A DNA stretch of 53,407 nt from Alphaproteobacteria bacterium (GCA_030831315.1 JAURLI010000077.1:1-53407), one strand, 5' to 3'; shown: positions 28,276 to 52,042, counted from the first letter of the stretch. Program-made: numbers and translations. The notes: a model not told the origin generated them from the sequence alone.

Positions 28276-29922
28276 ATGATCGACTTCAGGACAAACCCCG
28301 AAAAGTACAAGCACTGGAAGGTCACCTATGACGGCCCGGTGGCGACGATCGCTATGGACGTCAACGAGAATGGCGGCCTGGTGGAAGGCTACCAGCTCAA
28401 GCTGAACTCCTACGATCTTGGCGTCGATATCGAGCTTTACGATGCCGTCCAGCGCATGCGCTTCGAGCATCCGGAAGTGGGTGCGGTGGTCATGACCTCG
28501 GCCAAGGACAACGTCTTCTGCGCCGGCGCGAACATCAAGATGCTTGGCCTGTCCACCCATGCCTGGAAGGTCAACTTCTGCAAGTTCACCAACGAGACCC
28601 GCAACGGCATCGAGGACGCGAGCAACTTCTCGCATCAGACTTACCTCTGCGCCGTCAACGGCACCGCGGCGGGCGGCGGCTACGAGCTCGCGCTTGCCTG
28701 CGAACACATCATGCTGGTGGACGACAATTCCTCCGCCGTGTCGCTGCCGGAAGTGCCGCTGCTGGCCGTGCTGCCGGGTACCGGCGGGCTTACCCGCGTC
28801 GTCGACAAGCGCATGGTGCGCCGCGACCACGCCGATTTCTTCTGCACCCTGACCGAAGGCATCCGCGGTTCGCGCGCCGTCAACTGGAAGCTGGTGGACG
28901 AGGTCGTTCCGCGCTCGAAGATGGCTGACGAGGTCAAGGCTCGCGCTGCCGAATTCGCGGCGAAGACCGACCGCCCGAAGGGCGCCAAGGGCATCAAGCT
29001 GACCGAGCTTGCGCGCGAGATTTCGGGCGACAAGATTACGTACAACAGCGTCAGTGCCGAGATCGACCGCAACCGCAACGCCGTGACCGTCACCGTGCGT
29101 GCGCCGAAGGAAGCGGTGCCGCAGGACGCGGCCGCCATCCACGCCCAGGGCGACAAGTACTGGCCGCTGGCGGTTGCCCGTGAACTCGACGACCTGATCC
29201 TGCATCTGCGCACGAACGAATCGGTTATCGGTCTCTGGGTCCTCAAGACCGAAGGCGACCCGGAGATGGTCGCCAAGGCCGACGAATCGCTCGAAAAGAA
29301 CGCCAAGGATTGGCTGGTGCGCGAAATCACCCTTTACCTGAAGCGTACCCTCAAGCGCATCGACGTGACCTCGCGCTCGATCATCACCCTGGTGGAGCCG
29401 GGCAGCTGCTTCGTCGGCACGCTCGCCGAGCTTCTGCTGGTGGCTGATCGCAGCTTCATGCTCGACGGCACCATGGGCGGCAAGAATGCGCCCGCCAAGG
29501 TTCGCCTCAACAACATGAACTTCGGCCCGTACCCCATGGGCAACGGCCTGACCCGCCTCGCCACCCGCTACCTCGGCGACGATGCCGGGCTCAAGGCGGT
29601 GGAAGCGGCCAAGGGCAAGGATCTCGACGCCCAGCAGGCGGAAGAGCTCGGCCTCGTCACCTTCGCGCCCGACGACATCGACTGGGACGACGAAGTGCGC
29701 ATCGCCATCGAGGAACGCGCGGCGATGTCGCCCGACGCACTCACGGGCATGGAAGCGAGCCTGCGCTTTGCCGGTCCGGAAACCCTGGAAACCAAGATCT
29801 TCGGGCGCCTGTCCGCCTGGCAGAACTGGATCTTCCAGCGGCCGAACGCCGTCGGCGCTGATGGCGCGCTGAAGCTGTTCGGCTCCGGCAAGCGGGCCAA
29901 GTTCGACGAAAATCGCGTTTAA
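28276..29922 (+). CDS. boxC: 2,3-epoxybenzoyl-CoA dihydrolase (benzoyl-CoA-dihydrodiol lyase)
   Basis: The 548-residue protein has the length and double-crotonase layout specific to BoxC, with the blocks MTSAKDNVFCAGANIKMLGL, NGTAAGGGYELALACEHIML and VEPGSCFVGTLAELLL. BoxC opens the ring of 2,3-epoxybenzoyl-CoA using two waters, giving 3,4-dehydroadipyl-CoA semialdehyde and formate. A GGAG box precedes the ATG. BoxB follows after 52 bases. The formate it makes is a substrate for the Fds enzyme encoded at 40774-46718. Confidence 0.97.
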   Translation: MIDFRTNPEKYKHWKVTYDGPVATIAMDVNENGGLVEGYQLKLNSYDLGVDIELYDAVQRMRFEHPEVGAVVMTSAKDNVFCAGANIKMLGLSTHAWKVNFCKFTNETRNGIEDASNFSHQTYLCAVNGTAAGGGYELALACEHIMLVDDNSSAVSLPEVPLLAVLPGTGGLTRVVDKRMVRRDHADFFCTLTEGIRGSRAVNWKLVDEVVPRSKMADEVKARAAEFAAKTDRPKGAKGIKLTELAREISGDKITYNSVSAEIDRNRNAVTVTVRAPKEAVPQDAAAIHAQGDKYWPLAVARELDDLILHLRTNESVIGLWVLKTEGDPEMVAKADESLEKNAKDWLVREITLYLKRTLKRIDVTSRSIITLVEPGSCFVGTLAELLLVADRSFMLDGTMGGKNAPAKVRLNNMNFGPYPMGNGLTRLATRYLGDDAGLKAVEAAKGKDLDAQQAEELGLVTFAPDDIDWDDEVRIAIEERAAMSPDALTGMEASLRFAGPETLETKIFGRLSAWQNWIFQRPNAVGADGALKLFGSGKRAKFDENRV

Positions 29923-29974
29923 GTGAACGACTGATCTCAGCCGCACTGACTGAGCTACAAGTGGGAGAGTGAAG

Positions 29975-31402
29975 ATGGCCGGAATTGATTACGAAACCAA
30001 GATTCCCAATAACGTGAATCTGGCTGACGATCAGCGCCTGCAGCGCGCGCTGGAGGAGTGGCAGCCGAAATTTCTCGACTGGTGGAAGGAACTGGGCCCC
30101 GTCGGTTCGCAGAACTACGACGTCTACCTACGCACGGCCATCAGCGTCGAGCCGTCGGGCTGGGCGCACTTCGATCATGTCAAGATGCCGGACTATCGCT
30201 GGGGCATTTTCCTCGCGCCGGCCGAGCAGGATCGCAAGATCAACTTCGGCCAGCACAAGGGCCAGCCGGCGTGGCAGCAGGTCCCGGGCGAATATCGCTC
30301 GGAGCTGCGCCGCCTGATCGTGACCCAGGGCGACACCGAGCCCGCCTCGGTCGAGCAGCAGCGCCGTCTCGGCCAGACCTGCCCCTCGCTCTATGACCTG
30401 CGTAACCTCTATCAGGTGAACGTGGAGGAAGGCCGCCACCTGTGGGCGATGGTCTACCTGCTTCAGGCCTATTTCGGCCGCGATGGCCGCGAGGAAGCGG
30501 AAGCAATGCTGCAGCGTCATGCGGGCGACGCGGATAAGCCGCGTATCCTACAGGCGTTCAACGTGGATACGACCGACTGGCTGTCGTTCCACATGTTCAC
30601 CTACTTCCAGGATCGTGACGGCAAGTTCCAGCTGTCCGCTCTTTCCGAATCGGGCTTTGATCCGTTGTCGCGTACCTGCCGCTTCATGCTGACCGAGGAA
30701 GCCCACCACCTGTTCGTGGGCGAATCGGGCATTTCGCGTATCATCCAGCGTTCCTGCGAGATCATGAAGGAGAACAAGCTCGCCGACCCGGCCGATGTTC
30801 GCAAGCATGGCGGGATCGATCTGCCGACGATCCAGAAGTACCTCAACTTCCACTTCTCGATCTGCCTTGACCTGTTCGGCCAAGAACTTTCGACCAACGC
30901 GGCGAACTACTACACGATGGGGATCAAGGGCCGCTACGGCGAGACCAAGATCAACGACGACCATGTTCTGACGGGTGCCACCTACAAGGTGCCGGAAGTG
31001 CGCGGCACCACCATCACGGAAGTCGACGAGCCGGCGCTGAACGCCATCAATCAACGTTTGCGCGACGACTACTACGACGACACCCAGCGCGGCGTCGACA
31101 ACTGGAACAAGATCATCCGTGACCACGGTATCGACTTCCGGCTGGTGCTGCCGAACAAGGCCTTCCACCGCAACATTGGGCCTTTCGCCCAGGTGAAGGC
31201 GACGCCGACCGGTAAGATCATCACCGAGGCCGATTGGGACAAACAGCACGGCTCCTGGCTGCCGACCCAGAAGGACAAGGACTACATCCAGGAACTGATG
31301 AAGCCGGTGACGGAGGCGGGCAAGTTCGCGAATTACATCGCGCCGCCGGCCCGGGGTATCAACCGCCAGTCGGTTGATTTTGAATATGTTAAGTTCCACT
31401 GA
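29975..31402 (+). CDS. boxB: Benzoyl-CoA 2,3-epoxidase, diiron oxygenase component
   Basis: The 475-residue protein matches BoxB. The two diiron ligand pairs are visible as E152-x2-H155 (VEEGRHLW) and E241-x2-H244 (TEEAHHLFVG). BoxB uses O2 and reducing power from the flavoprotein BoxA to make 2,3-epoxybenzoyl-CoA. The ATG at 29975 is preferred because GGAGAG lies six bases upstream; the in-frame GTG at 29969 has no space for a ribosome site. No boxA gene is in the window, so the electron donor must be encoded elsewhere or be replaced. A strong terminator follows. Confidence 0.97.
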   Translation: MAGIDYETKIPNNVNLADDQRLQRALEEWQPKFLDWWKELGPVGSQNYDVYLRTAISVEPSGWAHFDHVKMPDYRWGIFLAPAEQDRKINFGQHKGQPAWQQVPGEYRSELRRLIVTQGDTEPASVEQQRRLGQTCPSLYDLRNLYQVNVEEGRHLWAMVYLLQAYFGRDGREEAEAMLQRHAGDADKPRILQAFNVDTTDWLSFHMFTYFQDRDGKFQLSALSESGFDPLSRTCRFMLTEEAHHLFVGESGISRIIQRSCEIMKENKLADPADVRKHGGIDLPTIQKYLNFHFSICLDLFGQELSTNAANYYTMGIKGRYGETKINDDHVLTGATYKVPEVRGTTITEVDEPALNAINQRLRDDYYDDTQRGVDNWNKIIRDHGIDFRLVLPNKAFHRNIGPFAQVKATPTGKIITEADWDKQHGSWLPTQKDKDYIQELMKPVTEAGKFANYIAPPARGINRQSVDFEYVKFH

Positions 31403-31515: not shown

Positions 31516-32286
31516 TCAATGATGACGCCAGGCGGGCCGGCGCTTTTCCATGAAGGCGCGCAGCCCTTCGACGGGGTCGTCGTGGGACATCAGCACATCC
31601 ATGTAATGGCGCTCGACCCAGTCGAGTTTGTCGGACACCCGCTGGGCGTAGCCTTGCCGTGCGGCGAGGATCGCCGAACGCAGGGCCGGCGCGCTTTTGT
31701 CGACGAAGTAATCCTCGAACCATTTGCGTGCCGCGGCATCCGGATCGGCATCGGTGCGGGGGATGAGACCCATAGCCTGAGCCTCGCTTCCCGTCACCGT
31801 GCGCCCGGTCAGCAGCAGTTCTTCGGCGCGGGCCTGTCCGATGCGCTCAGGCAGCAGGACGCTTGCGGCCGGGGCAAAGACGGCAAGGCGGATTTCCGGC
31901 TGGCCGAGGGTTGCATCGGGGGCGGCGAACAGGAAAGTTCCGGCGGCGGCCAGTTCCAGCCCGCCGCCAAGGCAATAGCCCCGAATGGCGACAAGAATGG
32001 GCAGGGGAAATGCCACCATCGTTTTGATGCAGGCATGAAAGCCCGCTAGCATCTTCGCGCAATGCTCGGGCATGTGTTCGGGAATGGATGCCCCGTAGGA
32101 AAAATGCGGTCCGTCGTGATCAATGAGGACAGCGAGCAGGGCGCGATCATCGCGGTGGGCATCCAGCGCCGCGCGCACCGCATCCGCCATCGCCATGTCG
32201 ATCAGGTTGGCGCGCGGGGCGGCCAGCGTCAGGCGTAACAGGCGCCCGTCGCTCTCGGTGCTGACGCGCAGGGGGACACCCGCCAA
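31516..32286 (-). CDS. dch: Cyclohexa-1,5-dienecarbonyl-CoA hydratase
   Basis: The 256-residue crotonase carries blocks typical of Dch: HFSYGASIPEHMPEHCAKML, GYCLGGGLELA and LGQPEIRLAVFAPAASVLLP. Dch adds water to the dienoyl-CoA made by benzoyl-CoA reductase in the oxygen-independent pathway. A TTG at 32286 is the likely start, with AGGGGG upstream inside the end of oah; the next ATG would cut off about 30 conserved residues. It is the last gene of the operon that starts at 38741. No benzoyl-CoA reductase gene is in the window. Confidence 0.85.
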   Translation of the reverse strand: MAGVPLRVSTESDGRLLRLTLAAPRANLIDMAMADAVRAALDAHRDDRALLAVLIDHDGPHFSYGASIPEHMPEHCAKMLAGFHACIKTMVAFPLPILVAIRGYCLGGGLELAAAGTFLFAAPDATLGQPEIRLAVFAPAASVLLPERIGQARAEELLLTGRTVTGSEAQAMGLIPRTDADPDAAARKWFEDYFVDKSAPALRSAILAARQGYAQRVSDKLDWVERHYMDVLMSHDDPVEGLRAFMEKRRPAWRHH

Positions 32287-32290: not shown

Positions 32291-33433
32291 TCAGTCCCCC
32301 TTCTTGCGCGGCATCAGGCTTTCGGTCAGTTGGTCCGTCCACGGCGCGCCCATGCCCAAAGCCTGGCGCAGCGCGATGAAATCGACCTCGCGGCCGGTTT
32401 CCTTGTTGCCGCGATTGAAGGCGCGGAAGCCCGCGCGGGCTTCCGTCATCATGTTGAAGGCCATCCACGAGCGGGACGGTTCCTTGTTGCGCTGCCAGGC
32501 GTCGAGCTTGGGCTTGCGCAATTCCTCTATCGTCTTGAGGGTGCATTCGGGGAAGGTTTCGAGCAGCACGGTGCAGAGCTTTTCGACCGCGGTATCGAGG
32601 GCGGAAAGATCCATCTGGCCCTTGGCCATCAGGTCCTTGCCTGCTTTCAGGGCATCGCCGGTCTTGGCTTCGCCGAAAACGAAGCGGCCCATGTCGTCCG
32701 TCATGCGGTCGGTCACGACCAACGGGTTGGGAACGTATTTGCCGTCGACCTTCAGCGCGGACGCAATGTCGGAGATCATGCCGAGGCGGTAGGCCTTGTG
32801 GGCCGAGAACGGCTGGCACAGCACGCCCGCGTTCATGGCGTTTTCGGTGCCAATCAGCACGGGCAGGAAGTCCGTCGCGCCGGCGATGGGGGCGGATCCG
32901 TGCTTGGGTCCTGCCTGTCCGAAGCGCGCCATGTCCTGGGCGATGGAGAAATCGCAGGCCATGCCGATTTCTTGGCCGCCGCCGAGTCGCATGCCGTTGA
33001 CGCGGCAGACGGTCGGCTTGTCCACGGTCAGGATTGTCGTCACCAGATCCATGAACAGGCGCATGTACTGACGAAACTCCTGCGGATTGCCCGCGTAGTA
33101 TTCGGCCAGTTCCTGCACGTTGCCGCCGGTGCAGAAGGACGTCGTGCCTTCGCCGGTCAGCACGATGGCGACCACATCGCGCGACAGCGACGCCTGGCGC
33201 ATGGCGACGGTGGCGCCCTTCATCATGTCGACGGTCAGCGCGTTGAGCTGCTTTGGGTTATCGAGGATGACCCAGGCGTTGTAGAGGCCTTCCACGGGCT
33301 TGCCGTCGGGGCCCAGCGCGGGGCGGCGCTCAAGGCGCACGCCGGGCGCGATGGCGGCGCCGGGAACGAGGTTGTGATCGACGAGGTTTTCGGGGCGCGT
33401 CGCCTTGGCGACATCGACGGGGGATCTGGTCAT
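32291..33433 (-). CDS. oah: 6-oxocyclohex-1-ene-1-carbonyl-CoA hydrolase
   Basis: The 380-residue protein has the length and wording of Oah/BamA: LYNAWVILDNPKQLNALT, SFCTGGNVQELAEYYAGNPQ, RVNGMRLGGGQEIGMACDF and RFGQAGPKHGSAPIAGATDF. It hydrolyses the ring of 6-oxocyclohexene-carbonyl-CoA to 3-hydroxypimelyl-CoA in the oxygen-independent benzoyl-CoA route. It is encoded 36 bases downstream of the second CoA-transferase gene and four bases before dch, so it is in the UbiD/CoA-transferase operon. BamA is a widely used marker for anaerobic aromatic degradation, which makes its presence beside boxBC notable. Confidence 0.92.
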   Translation of the reverse strand: MTRSPVDVAKATRPENLVDHNLVPGAAIAPGVRLERRPALGPDGKPVEGLYNAWVILDNPKQLNALTVDMMKGATVAMRQASLSRDVVAIVLTGEGTTSFCTGGNVQELAEYYAGNPQEFRQYMRLFMDLVTTILTVDKPTVCRVNGMRLGGGQEIGMACDFSIAQDMARFGQAGPKHGSAPIAGATDFLPVLIGTENAMNAGVLCQPFSAHKAYRLGMISDIASALKVDGKYVPNPLVVTDRMTDDMGRFVFGEAKTGDALKAGKDLMAKGQMDLSALDTAVEKLCTVLLETFPECTLKTIEELRKPKLDAWQRNKEPSRSWMAFNMMTEARAGFRAFNRGNKETGREVDFIALRQALGMGAPWTDQLTESLMPRKKGD

Positions 33434-33469: not shown

Positions 33470-34687
33470 CTAGATGACGCCGTTTTCCTTGAGCTTCCGG
33501 TATTCCTCGTCGGAGAGACCGAGGTACTGGCGGAAGACGATCTCGTTGTCCTGACCGATCGTGGGTGCGGGGGCGGTGACCTCGCCCGGTTGTTCGGACA
33601 GATCGAAGCCCGGGAAATAATGGGCCTGGTAATCGATTTCCGGATGCTTGCGCACGCGCCAGGTCTTGCGGTGGGTCAGCTGCGGATCTTCGAACAGATC
33701 GGCGCAGGTATTGACGTTGTAGGCGCGCAGGCCCGCGGCCTGAAGCGTTTCGACCAGCGTTTCGACCTTCTGCTTCTTCGTCCAGGCGGCAATGGCCTTG
33801 TCGAGTGCCGCGGTGTTCTTGCGACGCTGGGCAGCGGTCTTGAAGCGTTTGTCGGCGGCCCATTTCTGGCCGGCGAGCTTGGCCAGCGTACGGAACTCGG
33901 CATCCGACCAGCATGACAGCGCGATCCACTGGTCGTCGCCCTTGCACGGATAGGCGTTGTGGGGGCAGGCGACGGCGTCGGCGTTACTGTTGCGCTCGAT
34001 CACCTTGCCGTTGGCGTGGTAGTCGAACAGCGAGCCGGCCAGGAAGAAGGCGCCGCATTCGTACTGCGAAACGTCGATGAAGCAGCCTTCGCCGGTCTTC
34101 TGGCGGCGGTCGAGCGCGGCGAGGATCAGCGGCGTGCCGACCAGTGCCGCGACGAAGTCTATATAGGGACCATAGAGAAGCTGCGGCGTGCCTTCGGCCT
34201 CGCCCGTCAGGCCGCAGAAGCCCGCCAGCGCCGAAAGCTGCGAGCCGAAGCCGCCAGTCGCCGCACGCGGGCCGGTCTGGCCCATGTTGCAGGTCGACAT
34301 GAAGACGAGATCGGGGTTGGTCTTCTTGAGATGTTCGTAGCCCAGCCCGATACGGTCGATGACGCCCGGGCGCATGTTCTCGATCAGCACGTCGGCCCAG
34401 TCGGCGAGCATGCGCGCCAGTTCCAGCCCGCCCGGCTTTTTCACGTCGATGGTAACGTCGTACTTCGAATCGTTGAAGTAGGAGAAGCAGCCCGAACGGT
34501 TGATGCCCTTCTTGCCCTGGGGATAGGGCGGATACTGCAGGCGGAAGCCGTCGGGACGGTCGCGCGCTTCGATATGGATGACGGTGGCGCCGTAATTGGC
34601 CAGCAGCTTGCCGATCCACGGGCCCGCGGCATAACCGCCGACCTCGACCACTTTCAGTCCCTTCAGCGCCATCGGCTGTCCGGTCAT
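33470..34687 (-). CDS. Class III (CaiB/BaiF) CoA-transferase, catalytic-type subunit
   Basis: The 405-residue family III CoA-transferase has the N-terminal block VVEVGGYAAGPWIGKLLANYG, FNDSKYDVTIDVKKPGG, and D177 in GPYIDFVAALVG at the place of the catalytic aspartate. It overlaps the preceding paralogous gene by four bases, so the two are likely subunits of one enzyme. Paired class III transferases next to a UbiD decarboxylase are the known layout of succinyl-CoA:o-phthalate CoA-transferase and phthaloyl-CoA decarboxylase. I infer the same type of reaction here; an isomer of phthalate or another aromatic acid is possible. Confidence 0.82.
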   Translation of the reverse strand: MTGQPMALKGLKVVEVGGYAAGPWIGKLLANYGATVIHIEARDRPDGFRLQYPPYPQGKKGINRSGCFSYFNDSKYDVTIDVKKPGGLELARMLADWADVLIENMRPGVIDRIGLGYEHLKKTNPDLVFMSTCNMGQTGPRAATGGFGSQLSALAGFCGLTGEAEGTPQLLYGPYIDFVAALVGTPLILAALDRRQKTGEGCFIDVSQYECGAFFLAGSLFDYHANGKVIERNSNADAVACPHNAYPCKGDDQWIALSCWSDAEFRTLAKLAGQKWAADKRFKTAAQRRKNTAALDKAIAAWTKKQKVETLVETLQAAGLRAYNVNTCADLFEDPQLTHRKTWRVRKHPEIDYQAHYFPGFDLSEQPGEVTAPAPTIGQDNEIVFRQYLGLSDEEYRKLKENGVI

Positions 34688-35883
34688 GACACCACCACTG
34701 CCTTGGCGCGAACCAGCGCCGAGATATCCTTCGGCTTGAAGCCGTATTCGGTCAGAATCTTGCGGCTGTGCTCGCCCGCCTTGACGGGGGCGGGGCGCGG
34801 CGCGGGCAGGCGCTTGCCGTCGACACAGGCGAAACCGCCAAGGTGGCGTTCCGTCTTGCCGCCGGGGCCGGGCAGGTCGGCCCACAGGCCGCGCTCGGAC
34901 AGTTGCGGGTCGGCGGCGATGTCAGCGACGTTGTTGACTGGATAGCCCAGCATCTCGCGCTCGAAGGCCTGTTTCAGGAATTCGGCCTTGGGCACGGTCT
35001 TGAAGAAGGCGGAGATGGGCTTTTCCATCTCGTCCACTTCGGCTTGTGTCGTCTGGGTCGAATCGAATGTGGCCCAATCGATATCGGCGAGAACACCGAG
35101 ATCGGCGCCCGCGTCACGCATCCAGGCGCAGAGGCCCTCGTTGGTGCGTCGGCCGGCGACGCCGCCGTAAATGATGAAGTTCACGTAGCCGTCCTTGCAC
35201 GGCCAGAACACGCGGTAGACCGCGCCGTGAACCGAGCGGCCGGTCATGAAGGCGCCGGCGCGCTTGGCATTCTGGCCGAGGATGTCGAAGAAGGCGGGCG
35301 CGTGCGCGATGGAGGCGATGGTGGCGGACTGCGCCGACACATCGACATGCTGGCCGCGGCCCGAGGAATTGCGTGCAATCAGCGCGACCATGGCGCCGCA
35401 GGCGGCCTGGCTCGCGGCCCAGGGATGGGACTGCGGCGCGGAAACGCGCAGCGGCAGTCCGCCCGGTTCGCCGGCGAGAGACATGGCGCCACTGGCGGCC
35501 ATGAGTTCAAGGTCGCTCGCCTTCCATTCGGCGCGCGGACCCGTACGCCCGAAAGGCGTCACCGAGACATGAATGAGCTTGGGATTGAGTTCGCGGAGCG
35601 CGTCGATATCGAACAGCTTCGCCAGATCGCTGCCGGGCTGCGCCGTTTCCAGGAGGAAATCGGCCTTGGCCGCCAGCTTAAGGAAGGCGGCTTTGCCCGC
35701 CTTTGAAGACAGATCGAGCGACAGGAGCCGCTTGCCGGCGTTGTTGCCGCGCCACGCGGGGGCGGACAGGTCCGCCCCCGGTGGTTCGATCTTGACCACG
35801 TTGCATCCAAGGTCGGCGAGGAGACGGCCCGCGAGCCAGCCGAGTTCGCCCGTACAGTCGAGCACCCGGTAACCCTTGAGCAT
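34684..35883 (-). CDS. Class III (CaiB/BaiF) CoA-transferase, subunit lacking the catalytic aspartate
   Basis: The 399-residue family III CoA-transferase has LGWLAGRLLADLGCNVVKIE at its start and RGQHVDVSAQ after the active-site region. Where the partner protein has PYID, this one reads QSHPWAASQA, so the aspartate that forms the acyl anhydride is missing. It probably acts as the structural half of a heteromer with the next gene, as described for other two-gene CoA-transferases. It lies 30 bases after ubiD and overlaps its partner by four bases. Confidence 0.82.
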   Translation of the reverse strand: MLKGYRVLDCTGELGWLAGRLLADLGCNVVKIEPPGADLSAPAWRGNNAGKRLLSLDLSSKAGKAAFLKLAAKADFLLETAQPGSDLAKLFDIDALRELNPKLIHVSVTPFGRTGPRAEWKASDLELMAASGAMSLAGEPGGLPLRVSAPQSHPWAASQAACGAMVALIARNSSGRGQHVDVSAQSATIASIAHAPAFFDILGQNAKRAGAFMTGRSVHGAVYRVFWPCKDGYVNFIIYGGVAGRRTNEGLCAWMRDAGADLGVLADIDWATFDSTQTTQAEVDEMEKPISAFFKTVPKAEFLKQAFEREMLGYPVNNVADIAADPQLSERGLWADLPGPGGKTERHLGGFACVDGKRLPAPRPAPVKAGEHSRKILTEYGFKPKDISALVRAKAVVVS

Positions 35884-35913
35884 GTTCCCCGCCTTTCCCT
35901 GATGCGCCGTGAC

Positions 35914-37461
35914 TTAGCGGCCCGTGCGAGCCAGCGAGAGCACCCAGCCCTGCATGCGCGCGCGCATGTTGGCGATCTGCTCGTTGGTGAACCAGTTTTC
36001 CGGCTTCACCTTGTGCACGGGGTACACGGGACGGTGGAAGTCCTGTTCGTAGCCGTAGGGGACGGTAGCGTCGATGCCCATGCCGCCTTCGAACACGGTG
36101 TTCGCGGCCGTCCACTGCTGGCCCACGCCCGCGGTCATGCGCTCGGCCGGCATGAAGGTCTGGCCGATGCCGCCCGGATGCGGGTTCAGGATGTCCGTCT
36201 GCGGGTTCACGCGGGTGGTGAGGCACCACATGATGTCGTCCATGTCGTAGATGTCGACGTCTTCCGACACCGCGATGACCAGACGCGCGCCCTGCGAGCA
36301 GGCGAGGATGGCGGTCAGGAAGTTACGCTGCCAGCCTTCCTCGATCTTGTTGCGCTTCTTCACCTGGATGATCGCCCCGCCCCAGTCCGTCATGCAGTAA
36401 GGAATGTGGACGTTCTGGACGATGCCCGGCTGCAGGCGTTCGCACAGGTTGAAGATCGCCGATTCACGCACCGAGGTGTCGATGTTGGCGTCGTCGGCCG
36501 TGTGCACGCCGAGCGGGAAGATGATCGGCTTGGATTCCGGCTTGCGCATGGTGATCGCGGTGACGTGGAACGTCGGAGCGCGATACGCCTTGCCCATGTA
36601 GCCGGCCCATTCCGGATGGAAGAAGAACTTGCCCTGCAGGTTGGCGTCTTCCGATTCCTTGGTCTCATACCGCTTGTCGCGCGGGTGCAGGTAACCTTCC
36701 AGCACGTATTCCGCGTCGGCCAGCGTGTAGCCGGGAATGGTGCGGCACTTCACGATGCGCACGGGCGAACCCTGAATGGTGCCCGCCATGCCGACTTCCG
36801 AGCAGCCCTTCGGAAGCACGGCATAGTCGAAGCCCGCGCCGGCGAAGTAGGTGCAGGACGGCGGAACGCCGAAGCACATCGTCAGCGGGATCGGCTGGTC
36901 GTCATGATAGTGCTTGGTCATGACCTGCCACATGTGGGAACCCGGCGAGATCTGGAAGGTGCCGACGTTGCCCCAGCGGAAGTTCATGCGGTTGTAGCCG
37001 ATGTGGCTGCCGCCGTCGAAGTAGTCGCCGATGATGCACGAAATGCCGGAACCGATGGTCAGTTCGGTTTCGAGCTCGGTGTGACGGATCGCGGTGATCC
37101 ACTTGTTCACATCGATGTCGTCGGTGATGACGTGTTCCTGGACCGGCGCCTCGTTCTGCGGGACCTCGACCATCGGGGTCGGGTGGTCGATGGCGTGGGC
37201 CACCTTCTTCACGCGATCGAGGGAGTCGCGCCAGCCAAACAGCTTTTCGACGACCTTGATGTCGCCGAACAGGTTGGTGACGGCGCGCGCATGGGGCTTG
37301 CCCTTCACGTTGTTGAACAGGATCGGGCAGCCGCCGTCGAAGTGCTTCTGCAGACCGGTGATTTCGAGGTCGGGGTTGACCTCCTTGTCGGTCTCGATCA
37401 CGTCGCCCTGTTCCTTGAGCCAGGCAAGGGCGCCGCGGAGGGAGGTGATGTCTTTAGCCAT
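35914..37461 (-). CDS. UbiD-family prenyl-FMN decarboxylase, candidate phthaloyl-CoA-type decarboxylase
   Basis: The 515-residue protein has the UbiD core: SLRGALAWLKEQGDVIETDK at the N-terminus, the cofactor region GYNRMNFRWGN (about 155-165), the acid motif AEYVLEG (E251 and E255), FFFHPEWAGYMG, and late DVDIYDMDDIMWCLTTR. UbiD enzymes use prenylated FMN and a metal to add or remove carboxylate on unsaturated or aromatic acids. With the adjacent CoA-transferase pair and benzoyl-CoA genes, decarboxylation of an aromatic dicarboxyl mono-CoA ester to benzoyl-CoA is the best reading (inference). UbiX, needed to make the cofactor, is not in the window. It is the second gene of the operon led by bicupin 4. 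Confidence 0.88.
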   Translation of the reverse strand: MAKDITSLRGALAWLKEQGDVIETDKEVNPDLEITGLQKHFDGGCPILFNNVKGKPHARAVTNLFGDIKVVEKLFGWRDSLDRVKKVAHAIDHPTPMVEVPQNEAPVQEHVITDDIDVNKWITAIRHTELETELTIGSGISCIIGDYFDGGSHIGYNRMNFRWGNVGTFQISPGSHMWQVMTKHYHDDQPIPLTMCFGVPPSCTYFAGAGFDYAVLPKGCSEVGMAGTIQGSPVRIVKCRTIPGYTLADAEYVLEGYLHPRDKRYETKESEDANLQGKFFFHPEWAGYMGKAYRAPTFHVTAITMRKPESKPIIFPLGVHTADDANIDTSVRESAIFNLCERLQPGIVQNVHIPYCMTDWGGAIIQVKKRNKIEEGWQRNFLTAILACSQGARLVIAVSEDVDIYDMDDIMWCLTTRVNPQTDILNPHPGGIGQTFMPAERMTAGVGQQWTAANTVFEGGMGIDATVPYGYEQDFHRPVYPVHKVKPENWFTNEQIANMRARMQGWVLSLARTGR

Positions 37462-37556: not shown

Positions 37557-38741
37557 TTACGAAATCGCCGGAGCGCACTTCGGATTGGACTTGTACTTAG
37601 CCTCATCGATGAAGCGGTTCATCTTGGACTTGGCGCCGTGCTTCGAGAGGTTTTCCAGGAAGATCTCGTGGATCTTCGGATCCTGGTTTTCGTACTCGAT
37701 CTGGTTGCCGCCCTGCTGGACGTTGACGTCCATGCCGAGCCAAACCTGGCGCTTCTCCGCCAGCGTCGGGTAGCGCAGGCTGCCCATGGCGATGGCGAGG
37801 TAACGGGCCGGTTCCGGCGACGCGTTGAAGTGCTGGTGGAACATGCCGTCGGGCGGCGCGAAGACGACGCCGTGATCCCAGTCGACCTTCACCAGGTCCT
37901 GGGCCAGGTCGTACCAAAGCAGCGAGTAGCCGACGCCGGTGACGCACATGACATGGAAGTCGGCGCCGTGGCGGTGGCCCTTCTTGTAGGTGCCGACCGG
38001 CATTTCCGACATATGCGCGTGGATGGTGCCGTCAGCGAGCGAGAACATGATGTTCGAGCCGCCGGCGCCGCGGTTTTCCCACTTGCGCAGTTCGAAGGTG
38101 GCGAGATCGGGCACGAAGTTGGTTTCCCACATGTGCCGGCCCGGCATCTTCGGGATCAGCTCGCCGTCGCCCGCGAAGTAATCCGAATCGCCTTCGCGTT
38201 CCGGGAACTTGGCCGGGTTGCGGAAGACGAAGTCGTTGTTGCGGTAGAGATTGATGATCAGCGGCAGGTTGTTGCAGCTGTAGAAGCGGGCGCGTTCGGA
38301 GCCGGAGCCGTTGAAGTGCTGGTAACGGCAGTTGAGCGGCAGGGAGAACAGGCTCTTGGGACCCCATTCGAAGGTGTGCTTCTTGCCGTCGTAGGTCTCG
38401 ATCTGGGTCGAGCCGTGGCCGTCGATCACGTAGAAGACTTCTTCGAAGATGTGCTTCTGCGGCTCGGTCTTGCCGCCCTTCGGAATGTCGATGACGTACA
38501 TGGCGAGGAAGTCGCCGCGGCCCTTGAGATGGGCGAAGGCGCCGTTGACGCCCATGCGCGCCCAGGGCTTCGTTTCGACGGTCTTCATGTCGATGCCGAA
38601 GTCCTCAATGATGGGGATGCCTTCGGCCTTGCAGAAATTCATGTAGGGATCGACCAGGAACTTGTCGTCGGCGAGGTCGACAACCGCCTGGTTCATCGAA
38701 TCATTGGCAGTGCGTGAGTAGCTCGGAATGTCCGTGGCCAT
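37557..38741 (-). CDS. Bicupin protein, paralogue 4 of 4, leading the UbiD operon
   Basis: The 394-residue protein is a paralogue of the three bicupins at 14696-18334, with a slightly longer N-terminus (about 15 extra residues). The first cupin is partial (QKHIFEEVFYVIDGHGSTQ). The second keeps all three histidines (KKGHRHGADFHVM; FHQHFNASP). The tail has GGNQIEYENQDPKIHEIF. It is 95 bases upstream of the UbiD gene, same strand, and is the first gene after the proposed promoter at 38939-38966. This places the cupin family firmly with aromatic acid activation or decarboxylation. Its reaction is unknown. Confidence 0.82.
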   Translation of the reverse strand: MATDIPSYSRTANDSMNQAVVDLADDKFLVDPYMNFCKAEGIPIIEDFGIDMKTVETKPWARMGVNGAFAHLKGRGDFLAMYVIDIPKGGKTEPQKHIFEEVFYVIDGHGSTQIETYDGKKHTFEWGPKSLFSLPLNCRYQHFNGSGSERARFYSCNNLPLIINLYRNNDFVFRNPAKFPEREGDSDYFAGDGELIPKMPGRHMWETNFVPDLATFELRKWENRGAGGSNIMFSLADGTIHAHMSEMPVGTYKKGHRHGADFHVMCVTGVGYSLLWYDLAQDLVKVDWDHGVVFAPPDGMFHQHFNASPEPARYLAIAMGSLRYPTLAEKRQVWLGMDVNVQQGGNQIEYENQDPKIHEIFLENLSKHGAKSKMNRFIDEAKYKSNPKCAPAIS

Positions 38742-39010: not shown

Positions 39011-40567
39011 TCAGGCCTCCGCTGCGCCGTCGGCGAGCGTCTTGAGCCAGTCCTGACGACCCTGCACGGCAAGGCGCTGGTGGTAGAACCGCAGTGCCCG
39101 CAGGCCACCCAGTTCCTCGCCGCCGCCGGCCCGGCCCGGGCCGCCGTGGACGCACATCGGCATGACGATGCCGTGGCCGGTCTGGGACTTGCCCACGCTT
39201 TCATCGACCACCAGAACGCGGCCGTGGGCGGCGCCGATGCCCATCACCGCATCGGCGGCGAAAGCCTGATCGGCGGTGAACACGGAAGCGGCCAGCGAAC
39301 CGCCGCCCTTGCGCGCGAGCGCGAAGGCCTGATCGGCGGAATCGTAAGGCATGAGGGTGGAGACGGGGCCGAAGGCCTCGACCTCGTGGACGATGCGGGC
39401 GTCCGCCGGCTTGTCGCAGCGCAGCAGCGTGGGCGCGATGAAGCAGCTGACCTTGGCATCGGCGTCGACGGGCTGAACGTCGCCGCCGGTGACGGGTTTG
39501 GCCTCGGTCTGGAGGCGGGCGAGGGCTTCGAGCACGGCCTTCTGCTGGGATTTCGACACCACCGGCCCCATGCGCACGGTTTCGTTGCGCGGATTGCCGA
39601 CGACGGTCTTGGCGAGTGTCGCGGCAATGGCGCCGCTGACATCCTCGGCCACGGCCCTCGGCACGAAAATGCGGCGGATGGCGGTGCATTTTTGCCCTGC
39701 CTTCACCGTCATTTCGCGCGCCACTTCGCGCACGAAAAGGTCGAATTCGGCCGAGCCCGCCTTGGCATCGGGGCCGAGGATCGAGCAATTCAGGCTGTCG
39801 GCCTCGATGTTGATGCGGGCCGAAGACGAAATGACCTTGGGATGGGCGCGCAGGGTGTGCGCGGTATCGGCAGAGCCGGTGAAGGCGATGACGTCCTGAC
39901 CGGTGATGTTGTCGGTCAGCTCGCGCGCCGATCCGCAGACGAGGCTGAGCACGCCCGCAGGCAGCACGCCCGCCTCGATGACGTCGCGGACCATGCGCTC
40001 GGAAAGGAGCGCCGTCGCCGTCGCCGGCTTGGCCAGCACAGGCACGCCCGCGAGGATGGAGACGGCGGCCTTTTCCCACATGCCCCAGGACGGGAAGTTG
40101 AAGGCGTTGATATGCACCGCGACGCCGTGCAGCGGCACCGACAGGTGCATCGCCTGGAAGGCCTCGTCCTTGGCGAGTCGCTCGAAACGGCCGTCCTTCA
40201 GCGCTTTTGCCGCACCAAGGCTCTCGCCGAGGCGGGCGAAGTACTTGACGGTTCCGATGCCGCCGTCGATGTCGATCGAGGCGTCGATCTTGGTATTGCC
40301 CGAATTGGCCTGGGCCAGGGGGAAATAGCTGTCGCGTTTGGCGGTCAGCACATCGGCGAGGGCCTTCAGCAGGCCCGCGCGCTCGCCGTAGGTCATGGCG
40401 CGCAGTGCCGGGCCGCCGGTGTCGCGGGCATAGGCCATGGCGGCGCCGATGTCGATGCCGGTTGTCGAAGCCCGCGCCAATTCCTCGCCGGTAACGGGAT
40501 CGACAAGGGCCGCGCCCTCATCCTTGCCTTCGACCCATTTGCCGCCGACGTAACTCGCGAGTTTCAT
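39011..40567 (-). CDS. boxD: 3,4-dehydroadipyl-CoA semialdehyde dehydrogenase
   Basis: The 518-residue aldehyde dehydrogenase has the special active-site wording of the PaaZ/BoxD group: general base in NIEADSLN and nucleophile in GQKCTAIRR, plus HINAFNFPSWGMWEKAA. PaaZ carries an extra C-terminal hydratase domain of about 150 residues; this protein ends without it, which fits BoxD. BoxD oxidises the product of BoxC to 3,4-dehydroadipyl-CoA with NADP. The ATG at 40567 gives the family N-terminus MKLASYVGGKWVEG; the upstream extension overlaps the divergent promoter region. It is separated from boxCB by the UbiD operon and diverges from fdsG. Confidence 0.9.
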   Translation of the reverse strand: MKLASYVGGKWVEGKDEGAALVDPVTGEELARASTTGIDIGAAMAYARDTGGPALRAMTYGERAGLLKALADVLTAKRDSYFPLAQANSGNTKIDASIDIDGGIGTVKYFARLGESLGAAKALKDGRFERLAKDEAFQAMHLSVPLHGVAVHINAFNFPSWGMWEKAAVSILAGVPVLAKPATATALLSERMVRDVIEAGVLPAGVLSLVCGSARELTDNITGQDVIAFTGSADTAHTLRAHPKVISSSARINIEADSLNCSILGPDAKAGSAEFDLFVREVAREMTVKAGQKCTAIRRIFVPRAVAEDVSGAIAATLAKTVVGNPRNETVRMGPVVSKSQQKAVLEALARLQTEAKPVTGGDVQPVDADAKVSCFIAPTLLRCDKPADARIVHEVEAFGPVSTLMPYDSADQAFALARKGGGSLAASVFTADQAFAADAVMGIGAAHGRVLVVDESVGKSQTGHGIVMPMCVHGGPGRAGGGEELGGLRALRFYHQRLAVQGRQDWLKTLADGAAEA

Positions 40568-40773: not shown

Positions 40774-41244
40774 ATGGCCGAAAACAAAACGAAAGAGTCG
40801 GAAATTGCCGTTGCCGCCTGCGCCCGTTTCGGCAATCGCCCCGATGCGCTGATCGAGGTGTTCCACGAAATCCAGGACCGTCTCGGCTGCGTTCCGGCCG
40901 AAACCCTCGGCGATATCGCTGCGGCGCTCAACCTGTCGCGGGCCGACGTCCACGGCGTGCTCACCTTCTATCATGACTTCCGCGACCGTCCCGCCGGGCG
41001 GCACGTGGTCAAGCTGTGCCGGGCCGAGGCCTGCCAGGCCCTCGGCTGCGAGGCTTTGGCGGCCCATGCAGAAGCGCTGACGGGCACCAAGTTCGGCACT
41101 ACCAGCGCCGACGGCAAGGTCACGCTGGAGGCGGTTTACTGCCTCGGCAACTGCGCGCTGGGACCCGCCGCTCTTGTCGATGGTGAGGTTCATGGAGTGT
41201 TGAATACCAATAGGTTAGAAAAATTACTTAATGAATTAAGTTAG
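40774..41244 (+). CDS. fdsG: NAD-dependent formate dehydrogenase gamma subunit
   Basis: The 156-residue NuoE-like protein has the four cysteines of a [2Fe-2S] ferredoxin of the thioredoxin fold (CRAEACQALGC... and YCLGNCALGPAA). It passes electrons in the soluble NAD-linked formate dehydrogenase complex. It starts the + strand fds operon and diverges from boxD with a 206-base gap. The last 50 bases and the following gap are AT-rich compared with the rest of the gene. Confidence 0.93.
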   Translation: MAENKTKESEIAVAACARFGNRPDALIEVFHEIQDRLGCVPAETLGDIAAALNLSRADVHGVLTFYHDFRDRPAGRHVVKLCRAEACQALGCEALAAHAEALTGTKFGTTSADGKVTLEAVYCLGNCALGPAALVDGEVHGVLNTNRLEKLLNELS

Positions 41245-41279: not shown

Positions 41280-42824
41280 ATGAGCGCATCTGGAGAAATC
41301 ACCGTCTTTATTCCCGCCGACACCGCGGCCAGGTCCGTCGGCGCCGACGCCGTGGCGGCTGCGATCGTGGCGGAGGCGGCGCGCCGGAAACTGCCGGTGC
41401 GGGTGGCGAGAACGGGTTCGCGTGGGCTTCTGTGGCTGGAACCGCTGGTCGAAGTGGCGACCCCCCAGGGCCGGGTTGCCTATGGCCCGGTTGCCGCGGG
41501 CGACGTCGCCGGGCTGTTCGATGCCGGGTTCCTTGAAGGGGCCAAGCACCCATTGGGCCAGGGCCTGGTTGCCGAGATCCCAGAGTTCAAGCGCCAGACC
41601 CGGCTGACCTTCGCCCGCTGCGGCGTGATCGAGCCGCTTTCGATTGCCGATTACCGCGCCAACGGCGGCTTCGCCGGGTTGGAGCGGGCCAAGGCCATGA
41701 AACCGGCCGGGATCGTGGCGGAAGTCATGGATTCGGGCCTGCGCGGGCGCGGCGGTGCTGGGTTCCCGGCGGGCATCAAGTGGAAGACCGTTTCGGAAGC
41801 CGCGGCTGACCTCAAATACGTCTGCTGCAATGCCGACGAGGGCGATTCGGGCACTTTCGCCGACCGCATGCTGATGGAAGGCGATCCCTTCACCCTGATC
41901 GAGGGCATGGCCATCGCCGCGCTCGCGACCGGGGCGAAACAGGGGTTCATCTACCTGCGGTCGGAATATCCGGCGGCTATAAATACGATGAAGAAAGCCA
42001 TAGAACTTTCTGAAAAAGAAAGAATTCTTGGCGATCATTTTCGGCTGGAAGTGCGCGTCGGCGCGGGCGCCTATATTTGCGGGGAAGAGACCTCGATGCT
42101 CGAAAGCCTCGAGGGCAAGCGCGGCATGGTCCGGGCCAAGCCGCCGATCCCGGCACTCCATGGCCTGTTCGGCAAGCCGACGCTGGTCAACAACGTGCTC
42201 AGCTTTGCCGCCGTGCCGTGGATCCTTGCCAATGGCGGCAAGGCCTACGCGGCGTTCGGCGTCGGCCGGTCGCGCGGCACCCAGCCGTTCCAGCTCGGCG
42301 GCAACGTTGCCCGCGGCGGGCTTTTCGAACTGCCCTTCGGCGCTGGCCTCGGCGAGCTGGTCAATGACATCGGCGGCGGCAGCCGTTCGGGACGCCCGGT
42401 GCGGGCCGTTCAGGTCGGCGGACCGCTTGGCGCCTACCTGCCGCCCGCGCGCTTCGATCTTCCGCTTGATTACGAGGCTTTCGCCGCCGCGGACGCCATG
42501 CTGGGCCACGGCGGCGTGGTGGTTTTCGATGACGGCGTCGACATGGCCGTCCAGGCCCGTTTCGCCATGGAATTCTGCGCCATCGAGAGCTGCGGCAAGT
42601 GCACGCCCTGCCGTATCGGCTCGACCCGCGGCGCGGAGGTCATCGAGCGTATCCGGACGGGTGAGGATCGGGATAAAAACCTGAGGATTCTCAACGACCT
42701 TTGCGAAGTCATGAAAGATGGCTCATTATGTGCGCTGGGTGGCCTGACCCCGATGCCGGTCAAGAGCGCGCTTGCCCATTTCCCCGAGCACTTCGGGCCG
42801 GCGGCGCGTTCGCGCACTTCCTGA
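41280..42824 (+). CDS. fdsB: NAD-dependent formate dehydrogenase beta subunit
   Basis: The 514-residue NuoF-like protein has the FMN/NAD site (GRGGAGFPAGIKWKTV; CNADEGDSGTFADR; YICGEETSMLESLEG) and the [4Fe-4S] cysteine cluster in SCGKCTPCRIGSTRG. It reduces NAD with electrons from formate. The N-terminal ~140 residues form the extra domain seen in FdsB. It starts 35 bases after fdsG. Two short AT-rich patches (about 41974-42040 and 42660-42735) stand out inside this GC-rich gene. Confidence 0.93.
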   Translation: MSASGEITVFIPADTAARSVGADAVAAAIVAEAARRKLPVRVARTGSRGLLWLEPLVEVATPQGRVAYGPVAAGDVAGLFDAGFLEGAKHPLGQGLVAEIPEFKRQTRLTFARCGVIEPLSIADYRANGGFAGLERAKAMKPAGIVAEVMDSGLRGRGGAGFPAGIKWKTVSEAAADLKYVCCNADEGDSGTFADRMLMEGDPFTLIEGMAIAALATGAKQGFIYLRSEYPAAINTMKKAIELSEKERILGDHFRLEVRVGAGAYICGEETSMLESLEGKRGMVRAKPPIPALHGLFGKPTLVNNVLSFAAVPWILANGGKAYAAFGVGRSRGTQPFQLGGNVARGGLFELPFGAGLGELVNDIGGGSRSGRPVRAVQVGGPLGAYLPPARFDLPLDYEAFAAADAMLGHGGVVVFDDGVDMAVQARFAMEFCAIESCGKCTPCRIGSTRGAEVIERIRTGEDRDKNLRILNDLCEVMKDGSLCALGGLTPMPVKSALAHFPEHFGPAARSRTS

Positions 42825-42872: not shown

Positions 42873-45719
42873 ATGTCGCTGATCAAGGAACCTGATTACG
42901 GTACCCCAGCCGGGGAGTCGGACAAGACCGTCACCCTGGAGATCGACGGCGTATCGGTGACGGTTCCCGCCGGGGTTTCGGTCATGCGTGCCGCGGCCGA
43001 GATCGGCACGAAGGTTCCGAAACTCTGCGCCACCGACAGCCTCGACGCTTTCGGGTCTTGCCGCCTTTGCCTGGTCGAGATCGACGGCATGCGCGGCACG
43101 CCCGCATCCTGCACCACGCCCGTGGCCGAGGGCATGAAGGTCCATACCCAGACCGACAGGCTGGCGCGCCTGCGCCGGGGCGTGATGGAGCTTTATATCT
43201 CCGACCATCCGCTCGACTGCCTGACCTGCGCCGCCAACGGCGACTGCGAACTGCAGGACATGGCGGGTGCCGTTGGCCTGCGCGAGGTTCGCTACGGTTT
43301 CGACGGGGCCAATCACCTGGTCGGCGAAAAGGACCAGTCCAACCCCTATTTCACCTTAGATCCGACCAAGTGCATCGTCTGTTCGCGCTGCGTGCGCGCC
43401 TGTGCCGAAACCCAAGGCACTTTCGCCCTGACGGTGGATGGGCGCGGTTTCGCTTCGGTCATCGCGGCGGGGGCAGATGACGGCTTCCTCGCTTCCGAAT
43501 GCGTCAGCTGCGGGGCCTGCGTGCAGGCCTGCCCGACGGCGACGCTGATGGAAAAATCCGTCATCGAGCACGGCCAGCCCGAACATTCCGTCGTCACCAC
43601 CTGCGCCTATTGCGGGGTTGGGTGCTCGTTCAAGGCGGAGATGAAGGGCGACCAGCTTGTGCGCATGGTTCCCTACAAGGACGGCGGCGCCAACGAGGGC
43701 CATTCCTGCGTCAAGGGCCGCTTCGCCTGGGGCTATGCCACCCATAAGGACCGCGTCACCAAGCCGATGATCCGCGATGCGATCACCGATCCGTGGCGCG
43801 AAGTCGGCTGGGACGAGGCGATCGCCTTCGCCGCTGAACGCCTGAAGGCTATTCAGGCCAAGTACGGGCGCGGGGCCATCGGCGGCATTACATCGTCGCG
43901 CTGCACCAACGAGGAAGTCTTCGTCGTCCAGAAGATGATCCGCGGCGCCTTCCACAACAACAACGTCGATACCTGCGCGCGCGTCTGCCACTCGCCGACG
44001 GGCTACGGCCTCAAGACGACCTTCGGCACCTCGGCCGGAACCCAGGACTTCAGGTCCGTCGCCAAGTCCGACGTCATCATGGTCATCGGCGCCAATCCGC
44101 CGGATGCGCATCCGGTGTTCGCCTCGCGCATGAAGCGCCGCCTGCGCGAAGGGGCGAAGCTGATCGTCGTCGATCCGCGCCGCACCGATCTCGTCCGTTC
44201 GCCGCATATCAGCGCTGCCCATCATCTGCAGCTTCGCCCCGGCACCAATGTTGCGGTCATCAACGCGATGGCCCATGTGATCGTCACCGAAGGGCTGGTC
44301 AACGAGCAGTTCGTGGCGGAACGCTGCGAAGCCGAGGATTTCGCGACCTGGGCGAAGTTCATTGCCGAAGAGCGCAACTCGCCCGAGGCGCTGGAAAAAG
44401 TCACCGGCGTGCCGGCGGCGGAAGTACGCGCCGCGGCGCGGCTCTACGCGACCGGCGGCAATGCCGCGATCTATTACGGCCTCGGCGTCACCGAACATTC
44501 CCAGGGTTCGACCATGGTCATGGGCATGGCGAACCTGTGCATGGCGACGGGGAACATCGGACGCGACGGCGTCGGCCTCAACCCGCTGCGCGGGCAGAAC
44601 AATGTGCAGGGTTCCTGCGACATGGGATCCTTCCCGCACGAATTCCCGGGCTACCGCCATGTCAGCGACGATGCCGTGCGCCAGCAGTTCACGGCGCTGT
44701 GGCAGGCCGAGCTCGATCCCGAGCCGGGCCTGCGCATTCCCAACATGCTCGATGCCGCCGTCGAAGGCACGTTCAAGGGCCTCTTCGTGCAGGGCGAGGA
44801 CATCGCCCAGTCCGACCCGAACACCAAGCACGTGACGGAAGGCCTGGCCGCGATGGAATGCGTCATCGTGCAGGACCTGTTCCTGAACGAGACCGCGGCC
44901 TATGCCCATGTCTTCCTGCCCGGTACCTCGTTCCTCGAGAAGGACGGCACCTTCACCAATGCCGAGCGGCGTATCAACCGTGTGCGCCCGGTGATGAAAT
45001 CGAAGACGGGGCTGGAGGAATGGGAAGTCGCCTGCCGCCTTGCGACGGCGATGGGTTTCCCCATGCATTACGACAGCGCGTCGCAGATCATGGACGAGAT
45101 CGCGGTGCTGACGCCGACCTTCAAGGGCGTGAGCTTCGAGAAGATCGACCGCATGGGCTCCATCCAGTGGCCCTGCAACGACGCCGCGCCCGCGGGCACG
45201 CCGATCATGCATCTCGAAAAATTCGTGCGCGGCCGTGGTCGCTTCATGCTGACCGAGTTCGTCGCAACGCCCGAACGCGCGAACCGTTCGTTCCCGCTGA
45301 TCCTGACGACGGGGCGCATCCTCAGCCAGTACAACGTCGGCGCTCAGACCCGGCGCACCGGCAACGTCGCCTGGCATCCCCACGACGTGCTGGAAATCCA
45401 TCCCCACGATGCAGAGGAGCGCGGTATCAACGAAGGCGATCTCGTTTCCGTGTCCTCGCGCATCGGTGCCACCACGCTGCATGCGGTTATCACCGACCGC
45501 GTGCCCGCGGGCGTCGTCTACACCACGTTCCATCACCCGATGACCGGGGCCAATGTCGTGACGACGGAATATTCCGACTGGGCGACCAACTGCCCCGAAT
45601 ACAAGGTGACTGCCGTGCAGGTCGTCCGTTCCAACATGCAGTCGGACTGGCAGAAGGAATGGGCCGAGCGCGAAACCGAGCAGAAGCGGGTGGCCGTCGC
45701 GCCACCGGCGGCGGAATAG
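42873..45719 (+). CDS. fdsA: NAD-dependent formate dehydrogenase alpha subunit, molybdenum enzyme
   Basis: The 948-residue protein has an N-terminal [2Fe-2S] ferredoxin domain (FGSCRLCLVEIDG), then [4Fe-4S] sites (CIVCSRCVRACAETQG; CVSCGACVQACPTA; CAYCGVGCSFKAEM). The molybdopterin domain has the catalytic cysteine in NVDTCARVCHSPTG, a cysteine and not selenocysteine. It oxidises formate to CO2. The length and domain order match FdsA rather than complex I NuoG. The formate is most simply that made by BoxC. It is followed after two bases by fdhD. Confidence 0.95.
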   Translation: MSLIKEPDYGTPAGESDKTVTLEIDGVSVTVPAGVSVMRAAAEIGTKVPKLCATDSLDAFGSCRLCLVEIDGMRGTPASCTTPVAEGMKVHTQTDRLARLRRGVMELYISDHPLDCLTCAANGDCELQDMAGAVGLREVRYGFDGANHLVGEKDQSNPYFTLDPTKCIVCSRCVRACAETQGTFALTVDGRGFASVIAAGADDGFLASECVSCGACVQACPTATLMEKSVIEHGQPEHSVVTTCAYCGVGCSFKAEMKGDQLVRMVPYKDGGANEGHSCVKGRFAWGYATHKDRVTKPMIRDAITDPWREVGWDEAIAFAAERLKAIQAKYGRGAIGGITSSRCTNEEVFVVQKMIRGAFHNNNVDTCARVCHSPTGYGLKTTFGTSAGTQDFRSVAKSDVIMVIGANPPDAHPVFASRMKRRLREGAKLIVVDPRRTDLVRSPHISAAHHLQLRPGTNVAVINAMAHVIVTEGLVNEQFVAERCEAEDFATWAKFIAEERNSPEALEKVTGVPAAEVRAAARLYATGGNAAIYYGLGVTEHSQGSTMVMGMANLCMATGNIGRDGVGLNPLRGQNNVQGSCDMGSFPHEFPGYRHVSDDAVRQQFTALWQAELDPEPGLRIPNMLDAAVEGTFKGLFVQGEDIAQSDPNTKHVTEGLAAMECVIVQDLFLNETAAYAHVFLPGTSFLEKDGTFTNAERRINRVRPVMKSKTGLEEWEVACRLATAMGFPMHYDSASQIMDEIAVLTPTFKGVSFEKIDRMGSIQWPCNDAAPAGTPIMHLEKFVRGRGRFMLTEFVATPERANRSFPLILTTGRILSQYNVGAQTRRTGNVAWHPHDVLEIHPHDAEERGINEGDLVSVSSRIGATTLHAVITDRVPAGVVYTTFHHPMTGANVVTTEYSDWATNCPEYKVTAVQVVRSNMQSDWQKEWAERETEQKRVAVAPPAAE

Positions 45720-50040: not shown

Positions 50041-50096
50041 GCTCATTCGGCTCGGACCCGTCGTAACGAAGCGGCGGGCCCGTCCGATTCCCGATC

Positions 50097-51590: not shown

Positions 51591-52042
51591 AAAAGCTCGA
51601 AATCATCCTGCCCGCCCTGATCATCGTCTTCACGCTGTTCGTCGTCGGTGCCGGGGCCTTCTATTACAATTACTCGATGGCGGTCATGCGCTTTCCCTAT
51701 TTCGTAGGCGCGGTGCTGATCGGTCTATCGGCCTGGCGGCTGGTTCAGGCGATCCAGGGCAAGCGTCTTCCGGGCGAACCCGAGGAATTGCAGGAACCGA
51801 CGACGGAAAGCATGGCCGAGTTCACGCGCACGGCTCTGTGGCTGGTGGCCATCCTGCCGGCGGTGTGGCTGCTCGGCTATCTCGTGGGCATCCCGCTCTA
51901 CCTGCTCGCCTATTTCCGGGCCCATGGCGAAAGCTGGCTGATGTCAGTGTCGTTGTCGCTCGGCGCGCTGGCGGTGACGTATTTCGTCTTCATCGTCTTC
52001 CTGCGCGTCAACCTGCCGGTCATGCCGCTGGGATTCCAATAA
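51587..52042 (+). CDS. tctB: Tripartite tricarboxylate transporter small membrane subunit
   Basis: The 151-residue protein has four predicted membrane helices (about residues 7-28, 38-55, 82-100 and 110-140), matching the TctB family. Its start overlaps the tctA stop by four bases, so the two are translationally coupled. It completes the transporter. Confidence 0.85.
   Translation: MKKLEIILPALIIVFTLFVVGAGAFYYNYSMAVMRFPYFVGAVLIGLSAWRLVQAIQGKRLPGEPEELQEPTTESMAEFTRTALWLVAILPAVWLLGYLVGIPLYLLAYFRAHGESWLMSVSLSLGALAVTYFVFIVFLRVNLPVMPLGFQ

Follow-up and report, generated by a model that had tools for sequence, protein, structure and literature searches.

A predicted phthaloyl-CoA decarboxylase module beside oxygen-dependent benzoyl-CoA genes in an alphaproteobacterium

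Why should an "anaerobic" type of phthalate entry be encoded next to enzymes that use oxygen? The question is raised by a stretch of 53,407 nucleotides (hereafter the window), contig C62 of the genome of an uncultured Alphaproteobacteria bacterium (GCA_030831315.1, JAURLI010000077.1:1-53407; label G000; 2.7 Mb, 89 contigs, 99.2% complete), whose nearest matches in a named collection are alphaproteobacterial metagenome-assembled genomes (MAGs). An earlier note on this DNA had described two coupled class III coenzyme A (CoA)-transferases behind a UbiD-family gene, in one operon with oah and dch and near boxC, boxB and boxD; all these genes were confirmed, those from ubiD to dch with gaps of -4 to 36 bp. 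We consider it likely, on the grounds of homology and gene order, that the block provides an aerobic hybrid route for ortho-phthalate, in which the transferase pair and UbiD would form benzoyl-CoA and the box enzymes would degrade it. Since this phthalate entry adjoins oxygen-using enzymes and no benzoyl-CoA reductase was found in the genome, the organism probably eats phthalate aerobically by this hybrid route. A transferase heterodimer with one catalytic and one dead subunit would transfer CoA from succinyl-CoA to phthalate; UbiD, with prenylated flavin mononucleotide (prFMN) from a UbiX encoded elsewhere, would convert the unstable phthaloyl-CoA into benzoyl-CoA; BoxB, BoxC and BoxD would then carry out an O2-dependent epoxidation followed by ring opening, and the formate from BoxC would be oxidised by the adjacent formate dehydrogenase (FDH). 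Enzyme identities in the block are assigned by homology and synteny; we infer the substrate, the direction of flux and aerobic operation.

The decarboxylase and the CoA-transferase pair

Three genes would make up the entry module:

35914-37461 (-): ubiD, predicted UbiD-family phthaloyl-CoA decarboxylase (Pcd), in the Pcd clade of Aromatoleum aromaticum EbN1
34684-35883 (-): CoAT1, class III CoA-transferase subunit without the catalytic Asp, SptA-like; 58% identical to EbN1 RS22145; motif PQSxxW
33470-34687 (-): CoAT2, predicted catalytic subunit of a class III CoA-transferase, SptB-like; 56% identical to EbN1 RS22140; motif GPYID

The UbiD protein shares 82% identity over 508-511 residues with both Pcd copies of EbN1 plasmid 2 (RS22190 and RS22150) and 82.5% over 508 residues, with one gap, with the solved Pcd (PDB 8oz5/8pmk); the third UbiD of that plasmid is only 26% identical. 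In the family to which the window belongs, the box-linked UbiDs group in a single clade with EbN1 Pcd and with one Pcd each from a Burkholderiaceae and a gammaproteobacterial source (supports 100/99, and 98/98 in a second tree). Phthaloyl-CoA decarboxylation is predicted for the window enzyme. The UbiDs of two family members, G002 and G006, fall outside this clade, a single clade of all UbiDs of the family without EbN1 being rejected (p 0.00015). A strict nesting of EbN1 Pcd inside the family's box-linked UbiDs was not upheld, the alternative of a position beside them not being rejected (approximately unbiased test, p 0.31). A UbiX-type protein of 196 residues, 45% identical to EbN1 UbiX, is encoded at G000:C13:13504 and could supply prFMN.

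Both transferases carry a CoA_transf_3 domain, and their EbN1 counterparts stand in the same order. In CoAT1 the PQSxxW motif occupies the site of the GPYID motif of the active subunit, and the catalytic Asp is absent in all 29 of the 29 homologues, including that of EbN1; this is the pattern seen in heterodimers of which one subunit is dead. CoAT1 and CoAT2 read as a single fused open reading frame of about 740-830 residues in several relatives. In the CoAT trees the proteobacterial pairs are joined (100/100), and the window's family forms a separate clade adjoining that of EbN1, so the histories of UbiD and of the transferases are not identical. The phylogeny against Aromatoleum proposed in the earlier note places UbiD within the EbN1 Pcd clade and the transferases beside those of EbN1, not inside. 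The suggestion in that note of an SptAB-like pair and a phthaloyl-CoA decarboxylase feeding the box pathway is supported by these identities, by this clade and by transferases that are orthologous to the EbN1 pair and identically ordered. According to a 2026 review, the transferases of EbN1 and PA01 act on ortho-phthalate and reject its isomers (PMC13040137), so that homology favours ortho-phthalate as the substrate. Where "phthalate or an isomer" had been proposed, isophthalate and terephthalate are no longer favoured, since UbiD groups with ortho-phthaloyl-CoA decarboxylases and the EbN1 and PA01 enzymes refuse the isomers.

Forty genome loci had sufficient downstream DNA, and in half of them (20; Pseudomonadota, Chloroflexota and MAGs labelled Deltaproteobacteria/Myxococcota) both transferase genes directly follow ubiD, as on the EbN1 plasmid; they do not in the other 20, Binatia loci among these. 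Given that this order and the box neighbourhood recur in relatives, the gene linkage is not a matter of chance. The UbiDs of these loci are 62-91% identical to one another, which disfavours a plastics-era origin of the Pcd module, an argument from identity rather than from dating. A second Pcd-like UbiD (69%), on a separate tree branch, lies right after CoAT2 at L021:14105 onward, G009:C461 and G010:C56. The G000 genome holds 13 UbiD matches, and at least six divergent UbiD genes are interleaved with TctC-type receptors and cupins at about 20-50 kb of contig C56 (L080, L081).

The oxygen-dependent side and the gene neighbourhood

Calls of box, oah, dch and FDH genes were judged against curated profile cut-offs, and BoxB, BoxC and BoxD all scored far above them. 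The remaining genes around the module are as follows:

28276-29922 (+): boxC, 2,3-epoxybenzoyl-CoA dihydrolase; TIGR03222, 943 bits against a cut-off of 712
29969-31402 (+): boxB, benzoyl-CoA 2,3-epoxidase; TIGR03225, 856 bits against 499
~39011-40564 (-; start inferred): boxD, 3,4-dehydroadipyl-CoA semialdehyde dehydrogenase; NF008868, 789 bits against 444
32291-33433 (-): oah, 6-oxocyclohex-1-ene-1-carbonyl-CoA hydratase/hydrolase homologue; TIGR03200, 565 bits against 464
31516-32286 (-): dch, cyclohexa-1,5-dienecarbonyl-CoA hydratase homologue; TIGR03189, 324 bits against 292
37557-38741 (-): bicupin, directly upstream of ubiD; orthologues in the family, bicupin-fold model
40774-41244, 41280-42824 and 42873-45719 (+): gamma, beta-like and alpha genes of an NAD-linked FDH; TIGR01591, 911 bits against 666; NF004638, 207 bits against 198
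46853-47833 (+): flavin/2Fe-2S oxygenase reductase; Fer2, NAD_binding_1 and FAD_binding_6 domains
49000-52042 (+; tctC start approximate): tripartite tricarboxylate transporter TctC (58 bits), TctA (420 bits) and TctB, the last assigned by position and length only

Transcription on the minus strand runs ubiD, CoAT1, CoAT2, oah, dch, with intergenic gaps of 30, -4, 36 and 4 bp. The CoAT2 ATG at 34687 overlaps the CoAT1 TGA by 4 bp (ATGA), and this start was taken, a mechanical open reading frame reaching 34885 being judged over-extended. The boxC and boxB genes converge on dch, and boxD lies upstream of ubiD, past the bicupin gene. Because 95 bp with an inverted repeat separate bicupin from ubiD, and 269 bp separate boxD from bicupin, these two genes may be transcribed separately from the ubiD operon.

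The order boxD, bicupin, ubiD, CoAT1, CoAT2 is syntenic in G000, in G001 (a relative of the same genus, matched to record WHSO01000041, Alphaproteobacteria bacterium isolate Dino_bin8), in G005 and in G010, and partly in G004 and G009, usually together with the FDH and reductase genes. The boxB and boxC genes share a contig with the block in G000, G001 and G005; in the genus of G002 and G006 the bicupin-ubiD-CoAT block is separate from box. BoxC releases formate, and an FDH beside boxD, as also found in G001, G005 and G010, fits this activity. The reductase gene is syntenic in G004, G005 and G010, and its product is a possible electron donor to BoxB; the Tct system may take part in the uptake of aromatic acids.

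Statements on genome-level presence or absence are based on family searches of G000. These gave no PF01869 match over the cut-off and no PF06050 match for a class I benzoyl-CoA reductase, and no PF01314 match for a class II reductase of the BamB type. The searches are able to detect a reductive pathway where one is present, since in G002, of the same family, bcr, dch, oah and had were found together on one contig; PF01869 matches lie on the oah contig in both G002 and G011. G001 and G005 carry oah and gave no PF01869 match over the cut-off. Window 20274-21299 was not accepted as had, since it scores 81 bits where the cut-off is 339. Cytochrome oxidase subunit I (COX1) was found in G000, and no narG scored over the cut-off in a search that did not extend to NapA or nitrite reductases. 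The absence of a benzoyl-CoA reductase from G000 matches strengthens the aerobic reading, and the hybrid would therefore be the sole benzoyl-CoA route there. The aerobic hybrid put forward in the earlier note thereby gains support from a genome-level result that its reader did not have.

Bicupin orthologues, 68-88% identical, precede ubiD in every genome of the family with enough upstream DNA. In the C-terminal half, all of 22 compared sequences keep His256, 258, 302 and 304, and the model shows a bicupin fold (predicted local distance difference test score 85); a PDB sequence search and a fold search returned generic bicupin matches only (template modelling score ~0.45). Four paralogous bicupins are encoded in the window, at 14696-15823, 15969-17090, 17201-18334 and 37557-38741 (all -), and on G000 contigs C56, C39 and C59 further paralogues have UbiD genes or, in one place, a Rieske gene nearby. 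EutA-like ATPases (PF06277, 393 bits) repeatedly adjoin bicupins (window 13110-14639 (-), L091:1705-3186, L026, L035), and in Chloroflexota, too, a EutA-like ATPase and a bicupin stand beside the UbiD-CoAT block. Elsewhere in the window are a protein like the 4-hydroxylaminobenzoate lyase PnbB near boxC (26751-27221 (+), 158 bits; conserved in G001 and G005), a gentisate 1,2-dioxygenase-like protein (1185-2237 (+); 2d40, E 4e-62), and tandem haem-oxygenase-like "iron-containing redox enzyme" proteins (18462-19247 and 19488-20255 (-); PF14518) with a common N-terminal motif.

Points against the hybrid route and rival explanations

Several observations weigh against the hybrid route. The oah and dch genes have no role in it; the transferases are just 56-58% identical to those of EbN1; and BoxA was not among the window proteins scanned, the genome not having been searched for it. 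Moreover, the window encodes at 12101-13090 (-) a relative (PDB 9jp7, E 1.3e-64) of 4,5-dihydroxyphthalate decarboxylase, which takes part in the alternative aerobic degradation of phthalate, and among the proteins of the genome is a Rieske-type relative of phthalate 4,5-dioxygenase (7fhr, E 3e-59). Together these two could form an alternative route for phthalate. With both present, the replacement of the usual phthalate dioxygenase, as proposed in the earlier note, cannot be claimed. Finally, the ubiX gene lies outside the cluster, and known ortho-phthalate clusters all contain UbiX (PMC13040137).

The status of oah and dch bears on one rival, according to which the operon is what is left of a benzoyl-CoA pathway once run by a facultative anaerobe that still had the reductase, the hybrid role being incidental. 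The family member G002, with its oah, dch, had and bcr on one contig, would fit such a history, as would the patchy retention of both genes: G000 and G001 keep the two, G005 has only oah, and G004 only dch, next to boxB. But oah is intact in G000, G001 and G005, and neither gene is a pseudogene, given that oah and dch have intact frames and are 75-84% identical when two species of the genus are compared; ubiD, the transferase genes, box and FDH are likewise intact and syntenic across genera. We regard a mere remnant as very unlikely. The Oah proteins of G000, G001 and G005 have the motif NALT, against NSYT in two reductase-linked copies, a difference that may point to an altered role or to a relaxation of selection.

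The substrate might also be some naturally occurring aromatic ortho-dicarboxylic acid instead of phthalate, for instance a hydroxylated or heterocyclic analogue, the use of phthalate by denitrifiers being then a later recruitment. The Pcd-type UbiD and the transferase pair occur at 62-72% identity in Chloroflexota, in Myxococcota/Deltaproteobacteria MAGs and in marine Alphaproteobacteria, too diverged for an origin decades ago, and the transferases have diverged more than UbiD. On the other hand, the window UbiD lies inside the EbN1 Pcd clade and is, at 82%, much nearer to true Pcd than these relatives are, and feeding the box enzymes needs benzoyl-CoA or a close analogue, so that another substrate appears rather improbable. 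That the pair is a benzylsuccinate-type (BbsEF) transferase, with UbiD acting on another acid, we hardly credit at all: the closest solved relatives are indeed the BbsEF chains, subunit by subunit (CoAT1 to 9fn0_A, CoAT2 to 9fn0_B in the PDB), yet they are far less similar than the Pcd-linked pair of EbN1, with which gene order and Pcd linkage are identical. BbsEF membership was rejected on this basis, and the hybrid route for ortho-phthalate remains the preferred reading.

Relation to known systems and meaning

The module resembles the block on EbN1 plasmid 2 (NC_006824; ubiX-ubiD-CoAT1-CoAT2) in gene order, in identity (82%, 58% and 56%) and in the dead-subunit signature of CoAT1. In contrast to the window, the EbN1 block is flanked by ubiX and a TAXI/TRAP transporter among transposases, with no box genes nearby; the window has a bicupin in place of ubiX before ubiD, and box, FDH, oah and dch as flanks. 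The BoxB, BoxC and BoxD equivalogs are those of the known box pathway, which would here be fed by a decarboxylase module.

The hybrid route is in principle already known, from denitrifiers (2020). Ebenau-Jehle et al. 2020 (doi 10.1128/AEM.00498-20) reportedly found that Thauera chlorobenzoica and Aromatoleum evansii convert phthaloyl-CoA to benzoyl-CoA and continue by the O2-dependent benzoyl-CoA pathway; these strains are said to be denitrifiers that degrade phthalate anaerobically as well. PMC9516798 cites Ebenau-Jehle 2020 on an aerobic hybrid phthalate pathway. The window shares with T. chlorobenzoica and A. evansii a phthaloyl-CoA route that would feed the O2-dependent pathway, but differs in that G000 gave no benzoyl-CoA reductase and in that entry and box genes are physically joined. 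This linkage to box, the absent reductase and the alphaproteobacterial family are new, as is the phylogeny that unites denitrifier Pcd with putative box-linked enzymes and points to a module deeply diverged over several phyla. In the collection of papers searched, nothing turned up on box with UbiD or phthalate, nor on boxB together with dch and oah.

The enzymes of the predicted hybrid route look far older than plastics. Tentatively, and as a possibility we would not call likely, the phthaloyl-CoA module might be an old, widespread aromatic dicarboxylate system of aerobic, reductase-less box users, from which horizontal transfer would have brought the "anaerobic, xenobiotic" Pcd to denitrifiers; in the window's family it would operate with a bicupin partner and with repurposed oah/dch.

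To conclude, the interest of the locus lies chiefly in its reductase-less aerobic setting and in the history of Pcd. Because the module has diverged over genera and phyla, its age and its natural substrate can be put to the test, and the pcd-spt-box block may serve as a genetic marker for an aerobic phthalate route that would escape surveys based on dioxygenases. If our reading is true, a reductase-less aerobe would show that phthaloyl-CoA chemistry is workable with O2 as the only outlet for benzoyl-CoA.

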